Positions 607 to 3,423 of a stretch of 64,000 bases of DNA are shown piece after piece. Position 1 is the first letter of the stretch; each line of letters opens with the position of its first letter. Where the stretch lies: NCBI RefSeq assembly GCF_001854405.1, contig NZ_CP017718.1:2728001-2792000 (forward strand). The letters run 5' to 3'. The position numbers were made by a program, and so were the translations under genes. This DNA is from Hyphomonas sp. Mor2. GTDB lineage: Bacteria; Pseudomonadota; Alphaproteobacteria; Caulobacterales; Hyphomonadaceae. The notes beneath the pieces were generated by a model that saw nothing but the letters and a program-made list of their open reading frames with translations, made no database searches and was not told the DNA's origin.

Positions 607-1992
607 CTAGACCCGCCGCCAGGTCGCGCCGCCAGCACTATCCATGATCTCGATGCCTTCGGCGGCGAGTTGATCCCGGATTCGGTCGGCCTCGGCCCAG
701 TTCTTGTCCGCCCGGGCCTGAATACGCGCCGCCACGAGCGCGTCGATCCGCGCGTTCTCGTCGCTGTCGCCGCCTTGTTCCCACGCCGCCGGTGTCCGGG
801 TCAGCAGACCCAGCAAGGCGCCCGCAGCGAGAAGGTTAGCCTTGGCATCGGCCATGCCGGCCTCGTCCTTGCGATCGGCTGCGCCATTCGCTTCGCCCGC
901 CAGACGGGACAGCTCTGCCAGCGCGATGGGCGTGTTGAGATCATCGCTCAAGGCATCGAATATGCCTCGGTCTGATGCATCGCCGCCGTCCGCATCCCAT
1001 ACTCGGCGCAGAGCCCCGTATATGCGGTTGAGCGTTGTCTTGGCTTGTTCGAGCAGGTCGGAAGTCCAATCCAGCGGTGCGCGATAATGGCCGCTCAGCA
1101 TGGCGAAGCGGATAACTTCACCATCCCAATCCTTGAGCAGATCATTCAGCAGGACGACATTGCCGAGCGATTTCGACATTTTCTCGCCGGCCATGTCGAG
1201 GAAGCCATTATGCATCCAGTAATTCGCCATGGTCTGCCCATGGGCGCACTCTGATTGGGCGACTTCATTCTCGTGATGCGGGAATTGCAGGTCGATGCCG
1301 CCGCCATGAATGTCGATCGTCTTGCCGAGATGCTTGGCCGCCATGGCCGAGCACTCAATATGCCAGCCGGGACGCCCGCGCCCCCATTTGCTGTCCCAGA
1401 TCGCCTCTTCCGGCTCGTCGGGTTTGGCAAACTTCCAGAGCGCAAAGTCGGCGGCATCGCGCTTGCCAAGATCGACATCGACACGGGCACCGGCCTGATT
1501 GTCGTCCAGCTTGCGCTTGGACAGGCGGCCATAATCATCCATTTGCGGGACGTTGAAGAAGACGCCCGCTTCGGTGGCATAGGCGTAGCCTTTGCGTTCC
1601 AGCGATTCGATAATGTCGAGCATCTCACCGACATGATCCGTCGCCCACGGCACCACCGTCGGGGGTAAGGCATTCACAGCGGCGGCATCTTGATCATAGA
1701 TCGCCGCAAACCTCTTCGTGATGGCTTCGATCGACTCACCCGTTTCCTGGCTGGCCGCGATGATCTTGTCCTCAATGTCGGTCACATTGCGGGCATAGAT
1801 GACGGCATCGTCGCCATAGGTCGAGCGCAGTAAACGAAACAGCGTATCAAACACGATGACGGGGCGGAAATTGCCGATATGGGCGCGATTATAAACCGTT
1901 GGCCCACACACATACATCGTCACACGGGACGGATCTTGAGGTTTGAAGGCCCGTTTTTCGCGGGCCATGGAGTCGTAAAGGCGGATTGGCAT
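607..1992 (-). CDS. cysS: Cysteine--tRNA ligase
   Basis: Cytoplasmic class I aminoacyl-tRNA synthetase that charges tRNA-Cys. The 461-residue length is usual. The HIGH-type motif is HIGN at residues 38-41 and the KMSKS loop is at 271-275. The zinc ligands expected in the family are visible: C29 (YVCGPT), C214 (HIECSA) and His/Glu in FPHHENE (about 239-243). The start at 1992 gives the family N-terminus MPIRLYDS; the ribosome binding site is weak (GATGAG). A 13-residue Cys-rich leader ORF lies 60 bases upstream on the same strand, so expression may be coupled to cysteine supply (inference). Confidence 0.97.
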   Translation of the reverse strand: MPIRLYDSMAREKRAFKPQDPSRVTMYVCGPTVYNRAHIGNFRPVIVFDTLFRLLRSTYGDDAVIYARNVTDIEDKIIAASQETGESIEAITKRFAAIYDQDAAAVNALPPTVVPWATDHVGEMLDIIESLERKGYAYATEAGVFFNVPQMDDYGRLSKRKLDDNQAGARVDVDLGKRDAADFALWKFAKPDEPEEAIWDSKWGRGRPGWHIECSAMAAKHLGKTIDIHGGGIDLQFPHHENEVAQSECAHGQTMANYWMHNGFLDMAGEKMSKSLGNVVLLNDLLKDWDGEVIRFAMLSGHYRAPLDWTSDLLEQAKTTLNRIYGALRRVWDADGGDASDRGIFDALSDDLNTPIALAELSRLAGEANGAADRKDEAGMADAKANLLAAGALLGLLTRTPAAWEQGGDSDENARIDALVAARIQARADKNWAEADRIRDQLAAEGIEIMDSAGGATWRRV

Positions 1993-2034
1993 GTCAGGCT
2001 CATCTGTCAGTAAAAAAGGGGTATGGCGAAGGCT

Positions 2035-2058
2035 GGCTAAGGCGGACAGGCCCTAGCC
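2035..2058 (-). promoter_or_regulatory. Hairpin overlapping the leader stop codon, candidate attenuator structure
   Basis: On the minus strand GGCTAGGGC (2058-2050) can pair with GCCTTAGCC (2043-2035) around a 6-base loop: nine pairs with one G-U. The 5' arm contains the leader stop codon TAG, so a ribosome reading the last Cys codons would cover it. The 3' arm also shares a 7-base complement (GCCTTAG) with CTAAGGC just upstream of the leader (2126-2120), so two exclusive pairings are possible. A T6 tract follows at 2017-2012, 17 bases beyond the hairpin, so this is not a simple intrinsic terminator. Confidence 0.5.
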
Positions 2059-2094
2059 GCAGATACAGACGCAACAGATGACGCGCAGAGGCAT
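2053..2094 (-). CDS. Cys-rich leader peptide upstream of cysS (candidate attenuator ORF)
   Basis: A 14-codon ORF including the stop, encoding MPLRVICCVCICG. It has a near-perfect Shine-Dalgarno, AAGGAG, at 2106-2101, six bases before the ATG. Four of 13 codons are cysteine (TGT TGC GTC TGT ATC TGC), packed just before the stop, and the gene downstream is cysteinyl-tRNA synthetase. Regulatory-codon-rich leader peptides are the hallmark of ribosome-mediated attenuation of amino-acid genes. A strong hairpin overlaps its stop codon. The ORF, its ribosome binding site and codon content are seen directly; the regulatory role is inference. Confidence 0.72.
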   Translation of the reverse strand: MPLRVICCVCICG

Positions 2095-2195
2095 CGCCGA
2101 CTCCTTGAAATCTGCCGTTGCCTTAGGCCCCTAAGCGAATTTTGGCAATGGCGGGTTAAAGTTCATCGCGGCCAATGGTGCCGAGCCGATCGTCT

Positions 2196-3152
2196 TCAAG
2201 GTTTGGAGGTGCCTCGCATCCGCTCGCGCCAACCGATATACAAGGTGGAGAACACAATAATGGCGGCTCCGACCCAGAGGCTCGCGCCGGGGATGAGACG
2301 GAAGACCCAGAAATCGGCCACCGCCGACATGGGCAAGCGCAAATAGTCTATCGGGGAGAGGAAAGAAGCATCCCCGATGCTCATCGCGTAGATAAAACAG
2401 AACTGACTGACAAAACCGAAGGCGCTCATCGCCGCGATAAGGCCCCAGTCCAGCAGCGAAACGGTGTTCCAGAATATGAACACGAAAGGCGCAAGCAGGA
2501 TGCTGGACAGAAGATTGGCGTAGAGCAGTAGCACCATTGGTGGCAGTTCAGCGCTCAGAAACTTCACCAGGACGATCGCTGCTGCGAGGCTGAAGGCGCT
2601 GATCAGCGCCACGAGGCTACCCATGCTCAATTGTGCGCCGTCAAATGCGCCAGGTTGCCAGAACAGGAACACGCCGGGCATGACCATGACGATCACGCCA
2701 AGAAAGCCCACAACGAGCGCGCCCCAACGGTGCAGACCAACATATTCGCGAAGCACCAGTGCGGCGAGAAGCGTCACGAAGAGCGGCCTGGTAAAACTGA
2801 TCGCGTTGAACTGGGCCAGCGTCAGGGTGAAGAAGTCCGACACAGCGACAATGGCCAGCGTGAATCCCAATGTCCCACACAGGCTTCGCAGTATCAGCAA
2901 ACCTGGCCGACGGGTCTTCATTTTGTGAAACCCGATCGCGGCGACGAAAGGCACCGCCATCCACATGCCCAGAAAGGCCCGCCAAAAAGCCAGAAAGACA
3001 GGGTGAACATCGGCGGATAGAAGTTTGTTGAGCAAGAGGTAGATCGTGAACCCAATGCCTGAAAGGACCATCAGGAATGCCCCTTGCAGGTTTCCCGACA
3101 AATGCCGCTTGTTAACAGCTTGGTAACCGGATGAGTCCCCCTTGTCTTCCAT
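2196..3152 (-). CDS. EamA/DMT-family membrane transporter
   Basis: A drug/metabolite transporter superfamily protein of the inner membrane. About ten hydrophobic segments are visible, in two repeats of roughly 140 residues, as in EamA carriers. The substrate cannot be told from sequence. I chose the ATG at 3152 (MEDKGDSSG); an in-frame start at 3185 would add 11 polar residues and run further into the divergent small gene. Even so, the two start codons share the bases CATG at 3150-3153, which is unusual and means at least one start may be wrong. Confidence 0.82.
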   Translation of the reverse strand: MEDKGDSSGYQAVNKRHLSGNLQGAFLMVLSGIGFTIYLLLNKLLSADVHPVFLAFWRAFLGMWMAVPFVAAIGFHKMKTRRPGLLILRSLCGTLGFTLAIVAVSDFFTLTLAQFNAISFTRPLFVTLLAALVLREYVGLHRWGALVVGFLGVIVMVMPGVFLFWQPGAFDGAQLSMGSLVALISAFSLAAAIVLVKFLSAELPPMVLLLYANLLSSILLAPFVFIFWNTVSLLDWGLIAAMSAFGFVSQFCFIYAMSIGDASFLSPIDYLRLPMSAVADFWVFRLIPGASLWVGAAIIVFSTLYIGWRERMRGTSKP

Positions 3153-3423
3153 GAACCGTTTCTCCGAATCTGATTTAGAAGCCATAGACCGCTTGTGGCG
3201 GTCGGTACCGGCCGATCATGTCTGGACCGGATGGTCGGCGACCGGAGACGAACCAGAAGAGATCACCCTCTACCGCACTCGCGCGCACTGGCGCCGGTTT
3301 CCGTTGCGCAAGTCAAATACGGAATTTGTGTTGTACGATGACAAGGGGACAGAAGTCGCGCGATCGGCGACTCCGAAGAACCTGCTGGAGCAGGTCGAAG
3401 CGATTCCAGGCCTCGTCGGTTAG
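3151..3423 (+). CDS. Small hypothetical protein, about 90 residues
   Basis: The product begins MNRFSESDLEAIDRLW and ends EQVEAIPGLVG. It is a soluble, mixed-charge protein with no signal peptide or membrane segment, and several aromatic and Arg residues in the middle (HWRRFPLR). Codon use looks like that of neighbours, and the ORF fills the gap between the DMT transporter and the SDR exactly: its stop at 3421-3423 abuts the SDR stop. An in-frame ATG at 3142 would add three residues. No family recognised and no clear ribosome binding site, so it may be leaderless or a chance ORF. Confidence 0.55.
   Translation: MNRFSESDLEAIDRLWRSVPADHVWTGWSATGDEPEEITLYRTRAHWRRFPLRKSNTEFVLYDDKGTEVARSATPKNLLEQVEAIPGLVG

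Follow-up and report, generated by a model that had tools for sequence, protein, structure and literature searches.

The closest described counterpart of the element considered here is uORFC-8-2, reported by Brewer et al. in 2021 from 145 examples that precede cysS, the gene for cysteinyl-tRNA synthetase, exclusively in Rhodobacterales (PMC8632094). In the portions of that report that were available, its tandem Cys codons usually fall at codons 14-15, ribosome-mediated attenuation is predicted for it, and its terminal U-run is read as an intrinsic terminator (PMC8632094). The initial annotation of the present DNA had regarded Cys-rich cysS leaders in alphaproteobacteria as apparently undescribed, a view that this prediction overturns. 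On the available parts of the description, the leader studied here resembles uORFC-8-2 in that it is a small alphaproteobacterial reading frame, placed immediately upstream of cysS, in which two Cys codons stand in tandem, but it differs in having the tandem at codons 7-8, in the absence of a detected terminator and in a probable translational output. The first stem of uORFC-8-2, as there described, also holds the Cys codons, whereas here only a proposed long-range helix does so, for which the window gives no statistical significance. In the 16-codon leaders of the genus Hyphomonas, the Cys codons at -3 and -2 from the stop are codons 14 and 15. The family Hyphomonadaceae is currently placed in Hyphomonadales and was formerly assigned to Rhodobacterales, so some of the 145 examples may be its own. 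Ile codons and citramalate synthase do not figure in the covered parts of the uORFC-8-2 description (PMC8632094), and in the accessible portions of the openly licensed literature neither an experimental test of uORFC-8-2 nor a link to isoleucine or citramalate synthase was recognised. Rfam gave no match at gathering level in the window, none near the leader at E<=5 and no gathering-level match in the loci of seven relatives, and membership of the leader in an Rfam family was rejected.

More distant parallels, each known from part of its source, come from other regulatory leaders. In mycobacteria, leaderless ORFs with polycysteine runs (Canestrari et al. 2020) are described as cysteine-responsive translational attenuators (via PMC9031893, PMC13236596 and PMC9094748); like the present leader they are short, lie upstream of the gene controlled and have Cys codons in runs, but they belong to another phylum, precede cysteine biosynthesis operons and are leaderless, whereas the present leader has a Shine-Dalgarno site and precedes cysS. 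Cys leader peptides have also been found before cys operons in Actinobacteria, where Rho was suggested by the authors (PMC1262725); they too carry Cys codons near the leader stop without an obvious terminator, but stand, in the parts covered, before biosynthesis operons and cbs and not before cysS (PMC1262725). Among alphaproteobacteria, the trpL attenuator of Sinorhizobium meliloti is likewise a leader peptide, and its leaderless transcript resembles what is proposed below for the cysS leaders of Hyphomonas and Rhodobacteraceae, but trpL has Trp codons and is a transcription attenuator of trpE, according to the portion of the source that was covered (PMC10117765).

The window, the whole 64,000-nucleotide stretch of DNA that was analysed, belongs to a Henriciella-like genome of the Hyphomonadaceae, and the sister genus Hyphomonas was used for comparison. 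Upstream of cysS lies a transporter gene (2196-3185, minus strand) with a weak TIGR00950 match below cut-off, and the 203-nt gap between the two minus-strand genes holds all of the leader elements (Table 1). Direct reading of the sequence bears out a 13-residue ORF preceded by AAGGAG, with 60 nt between its stop and the cysS ATG at 1992, and four Cys among its last seven codons, all as the initial annotation had it; the Cys codons are numbers 7, 8, 10 and 12. A DNA search found the element as a single copy in the host genome, and cysS is the sole ORF with such a leader among the 95 window ORFs of at least 150 amino acids (both strands, spurious ones included).

Table 1. Features of the cysS leader region, in window coordinates.
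Feature	Position	Strand	Basis or remark
cysS, cysteinyl-tRNA synthetase	607..1992	-	TIGR00435, 499 bits (cut-off 340)
3' arm of proposed long-range helix, UGACAGAUGA	2000..2009	-	7 nt before cysS start; pairing and folding
T6 tract	2012..2017	-	starts 17 nt past hairpin; no terminator found there
Hairpin around leader stop codon, GGCTAGGGC/GCCTTAGCC	2035..2058	-	arms 2058-2050 / 2043-2035
Leader ORF MPLRVICCVCICG, 13 codons	2053..2094	-	ATG at 2094, stop TAG ending at 2053; sequence and family conservation
Four-Cys-codon stretch (codons 7, 8, 10, 12)	2059..2076	-	2076-2074, 2073-2071, 2067-2065, 2061-2059
5' arm of proposed long-range helix, UCAUCUGUUG, first Cys codons	2072..2081	-	not significant alone
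Leader Shine-Dalgarno AAGGAG	2101..2106	-	read from sequence
Expected transcription start, approximate	2112..2116	-	inferred, ~7 nt past -10 element
Predicted -10 element CTAAGG(C)	2120..2126	-	16 nt past TTGCCA in 8/8 close relatives
-35 element TTGCCA of predicted leader promoter	2143..2148	-	TTG[GC]C in 8/8 close relatives, 1.2 expected

Conservation was assessed with a rule that accepted as a leader any ATG ORF of 8-20 codons with at least three Cys in its last nine codons and an end 40-150 nt before cysS, and expected counts were taken from dinucleotide shuffles of the upstream regions. Within the family, 105 genomes were searched, cysS was matched in 104 of the 105, and 100 upstream regions were counted, leaving out two in which the sequence ahead of cysS was short (G030, G052), three that lacked a usable cysS start (G001, G066, G083) and three extra paralogue rows. 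A Cys leader was present in 13 of 28 Henriciella genomes against 0.05 expected and in 36 of 40 Hyphomonas genomes against 0.10; one of six genomes of a further genus (g7) also had it, as did none of 26 across the seven remaining genera. By the three-Cys rule it is absent in 15 of the 28 Henriciella genomes, and by a two-Cys rule in 12. The antisense strand of the same regions, used as a control, gave an ORF with at least three Cys in 1/30 Henriciella (a set that includes two extra paralogue rows) and 1/40 Hyphomonas, and 0-2 per set overall. Outside the family, where 287 genomes of the class had a match and the upstream regions of 107 genes were examined (that of L194 was too short), the leader was found in 3/107 (0.07 expected), or in 13/107 by the two-Cys rule (1.75 expected). 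A further set was reached through Paracoccus cysS genes on plasmid records and through a family of genomes taken to be Rhodobacteraceae because identities to CysS of P. denitrificans reach 81% in it; here leaders with both Cys and Ile codons occupy 26 of the 29 usable upstream regions (e.g., MKSICIICCIIPC and MNTASIIIICCITR), with 0.03 expected.

The initial annotation had proposed that relatives be checked for conserved Cys codons, and these are indeed kept. Three of the four Cys codons persist in all eight close Henriciella and the last one in seven, while all 36 Hyphomonas leaders carry Cys at -2 and -3 relative to the stop, codon -2 being TGC in 30 and TGT in 6. The leader N-termini vary among these related marine bacteria as the Cys codons are retained. 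Judged by this conservation, the Cys-codon leader of cysS is real. A second cysS, 54% identical and without a Cys leader by scan, was seen in one Henriciella genome (L103, G016).

A candidate promoter accompanies the leader. In the close relatives a TTG[GC]C box stands 52-54 nt ahead of the leader start, and CTAAG[GT] follows 16 nt downstream of TTGCCA in all eight. In the 62 nt that precede the leader start, the box occurs in 8/8 close Henriciella (1.2 expected), 5/8 distant Henriciella (1.5 expected), 29/36 Hyphomonas (9.0 expected, 27 of them at 35-36 nt) and 16/26 Rhodobacteraceae (5.7 expected, 14 of them at 35-37 nt), and a -10-like element comes after it in many of the leader loci inspected. 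The CTAAGGC sequence had been put forward as an alternative partner for the hairpin; it does lie just upstream of the leader (2126-2120), but in all likelihood it serves the leader promoter as its -10 box and so lies upstream of the RNA start. With that start predicted about 7 nt past CTAAGG, the alternative hairpin would not exist, and this role was rejected since a -10 box would be absent from the RNA. The spacing of 35-37 nt in Hyphomonas and Rhodobacteraceae would let transcription begin on the AUG of the leader or close to it, which suggests leaderless transcripts in these groups.

The 9-pair hairpin overlapping the leader stop was also recovered as annotated; it has one G-U pair, and the stop codon sits inside its 5' arm. 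It is present in 8/8 close Henriciella (mean z -2.3), in 4/8 more distant ones (mean z -1.0) and in 26/26 Rhodobacteraceae leaders, but in only 5/36 of Hyphomonas, where in four sequences inspected the Cys codons pair instead with the stretch after the stop. In the two most diverged of 11 Henriciella sequences, both partners are altered in three of the nine hairpin pairs. The global fold of the 156-nt region 1985-2140 is no better than that of shuffles (z 0.21). As to output, the distance of the T6 tract from the hairpin is as had been noted, but termination at T6 was rejected, given this 17-nt distance and a pattern scan that found no intrinsic terminator there. Of the two outputs between which the initial annotation had not decided, termination and a block of translation, the latter would fit the window better.

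Such a block could be provided by a long-range helix of 10 bp, proposed to join the first Cys codons to the cysS ribosome-binding site. The pairing test asked whether a leader matches its native downstream stretch better than it matches those of other species, scoring contiguous helices over narrow stretches; the resulting p-values are optimistic because the stretches were chosen after inspection of the sequences, although in Rhodobacteraceae and Hyphomonas three control stretches per group were null. RNAduplex applied to longer stretches gave no information in any of the four groups (p 0.08-0.91). In Hyphomonas, the early leader codons prefer their own last 38 nt before cysS (n=14 after thinning, z -3.9, p 0.0004). 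In Rhodobacteraceae, the leader start pairs with its own stretch right after the hairpin (n=25 after thinning, z -7.1); p was 0.08 with a stretch placed too far downstream, and 0 of 20000 permutations did as well with the stretch just after the hairpin. Compared with shuffled sequences, the window helix falls short of significance (162 and 260 of 2000), and among six distinct leaders of close Henriciella it does no better than cross-species partners (p 0.17); it is found in five of these six, in one of them a pair shorter, and is broken in G023. Pairing with the own partner was likewise not significant in eight more distant Henriciella leaders (p 0.52) or in 34 distinct named leaders, mostly of Hyphomicrobiales and including Henriciella L229 (p 0.18). 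The covarying stems that had been suggested as a check were found as a helix in Hyphomonas and Rhodobacteraceae, but not as a significant helix in the window.

Accessibility of the cysS site was modelled as its unpaired probability, by folding with a 30-nt ribosome mask. In the window the modelled value rises from 0.28 in the free RNA to 0.62 with a ribosome at codon 7 and is 0.31 with one at the stop codon; moving the mask along the leader gives 0.42-0.62 while it stands on codons 2-12 and 0.31-0.32 once it reaches codons 13-14. The modelled means for the eight close relatives are 0.36 free, 0.55 stalled and 0.35 at the stop, with a rise of more than 0.05 in seven of eight. In Hyphomonas the site goes from 0.50 to 0.59 in the model, up in 18 of 36, and eight distant Henriciella give no gain (0.57 to 0.55, up in one of eight). 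In Rhodobacteraceae the mask barely alters modelled access (0.43 to 0.46), which would fit transcription termination there. The folding pattern of the window is what a cysteine-gated translational switch predicts.

Outside the Hyphomonadaceae the leaders often contain a second kind of codon. Among named loci outside the confirmed family, 44 of 66 have Cys+Ile leaders (0.37 expected), examples being MNGLLAICAICREITS in Bradyrhizobium and MTLRLTICRKTIIS in Methylocystis, and in many Hyphomicrobiales the leaders are likewise rich in both codons. All 30 Rhodobacteraceae loci (L305-L334) have, next to cysS, a gene resembling that for citramalate synthase, an enzyme of isoleucine synthesis. For 47 Cys+Ile leaders from the named loci (L236-L294), citramalate synthase is downstream of cysS in 36; five lack it within 2.5 kb (four of Tardiphaga or related, one of Methylophilus), and in six the flank is too short to judge. 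TIGR00977 was the best family for the two stretches of this gene that were tested, both scoring below cut-off because they cover about 300 of 526 residues, and in one record the gene is annotated as citramalate synthase. For 64 leaders with citramalate synthase downstream of cysS, the mean number of Ile codons is 3.66 and that of Cys codons 2.08; for 34 without it in the flank, the means are 1.00 and 4.03 (Mann-Whitney p 6e-13 for Ile and 5e-10 for Cys, relatedness ignored). Hyphomonas leaders average 0.11 Ile. Close Henriciella leaders have about two Ile despite having no citramalate synthase, and S. meliloti has an Ile-rich leader with no citramalate synthase annotated in the next 4 kb. The best match in the host genome to the Paracoccus citramalate synthase gene is 33% identical, so that leuA or another related gene is more probable than an orthologue. 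Of 28 loci outside the family with downstream sequence, for which leaders of up to 24 codons were allowed, seven have citramalate synthase nearby and no leader by the rule, one of them (L116) having a 26-codon ORF with CCC, and five have a Cys-only leader with no citramalate synthase in about 1.5 kb.

Several ORFs before other cysS genes were also seen. In seven loci of other alphaproteobacterial families (L111, L113, L184, L192, L186, L207 and L145), longer ORFs with CSCPC, CSCRC, CLCRC or CLCHC precede cysS and perhaps represent another leader type. The cysS of Paracoccus plasmid records (L297-L300) has upstream, by eye, a 14-codon ORF with a single Cys that ends in RCIITG, perhaps a decayed or weakly responding leader. 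In Paracoccus sp. MA (L301), the Cys-rich stretch MYLDDPTCCDADKCLC ahead of a cysS of a second type was rejected as a false leader, since it belongs to the end of an oxidoreductase gene annotated upstream, and that of L147 is probably the same case.

Ribosome-mediated cysteine attenuation of cysS, as such, is the best reading of these observations, and one that can be held with good confidence. In the scheme proposed for the window, a promoter and a Shine-Dalgarno site of its own would allow the leader to be translated. With Cys-tRNA plentiful, the ribosome would clear codons 7, 8, 10 and 12 and depart, after which UCAUCUGUUG would pair with UGACAGAUGA in a helix that covers the cysS ribosome-binding site and encloses the stop-codon hairpin, and cysS would be poorly translated. 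When Cys-tRNA is scarce, the ribosome would wait at the Cys codons and cover the 5' arm, so that the cysS site would be freed and synthetase output raised. Transcription start, leader translation, stalling and, in the window itself, the helix and the translational output are all inferred steps, and we give the last of these about an even chance. The same sensor could act on transcription instead, RNA polymerase stopping, by an intrinsic or a Rho-dependent route, in the C/T-rich stretch past the hairpin when Cys-tRNA is ample, and being kept from doing so by a stalled ribosome. Rho sites are C/T-rich and G-poor, as is the window at 2034-2012, and the Rhodobacteraceae counterparts combine the stop-codon hairpin (26/26) with a covarying leader-start stem followed by U-rich sequence. 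The reading of the uORFC-8-2 motif as ending in an intrinsic terminator, in the part of the report covered, points the same way (PMC8632094). Against this, T6 begins 17 nt past the hairpin, with no terminator by scan, and the leader-start stem of Rhodobacteraceae has in the window only about five possible pairs (GGCGA/UCGCC, by eye), which leaves termination here a possible but rather doubtful output.

Two other explanations dispense with the sensing of Cys-tRNA. Thiol-rich leaders can sense metal or redox state, and the Cys density of this one is high, so that its nascent peptide might arrest the ribosome through its own sequence; bacterial uORFs that sense copper are reported (PMC9426467). 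The gene controlled is cysS, however, the N-terminal residues of the leader are free to vary, and Ile codons are more numerous where citramalate synthase follows cysS, which fits tRNA sensing and does not fit thiol chemistry; a metal or redox sensor is very unlikely. That the ORF is there by chance, or is a leader without regulatory effect, might be argued from its absence in more than half of Henriciella (15/28, three-Cys rule), but counts of 13/28 and 36/40 against 0.05 and 0.10 expected, and of 1/30 and 1/40 on the antisense strand, make this the least probable account of all, and a hardly credible one.

Taken with attenuation by Cys-tRNA supply, the comparisons allow a broader proposal, whose prospects seem to us evenly balanced, that the alphaproteobacterial cysS leaders form one widespread and quickly re-coded family of sensors. 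In an operon that contains both cysS and citramalate synthase, cysteine and isoleucine would both be read, one leader serving both genes; where that partner is missing, as in the Hyphomonadaceae, the Ile codons would have become few or been lost, and the output would have shifted from termination to blocking of the cysS ribosome-binding site. The leader in the window is a variant of a kind already predicted, probably with a translational output, and its likely mode of action, together with the isoleucine-reading version in related bacteria, looks new. Because the control codons change with the genes controlled, these leaders offer a natural experiment, and the comparison raises the prospect of a single attenuator that responds both to one amino acid and to another unrelated to it. 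Hyphomonas, Rhodobacteraceae and Bradyrhizobium would be tractable systems in which to pursue it, with one specific helix to test.
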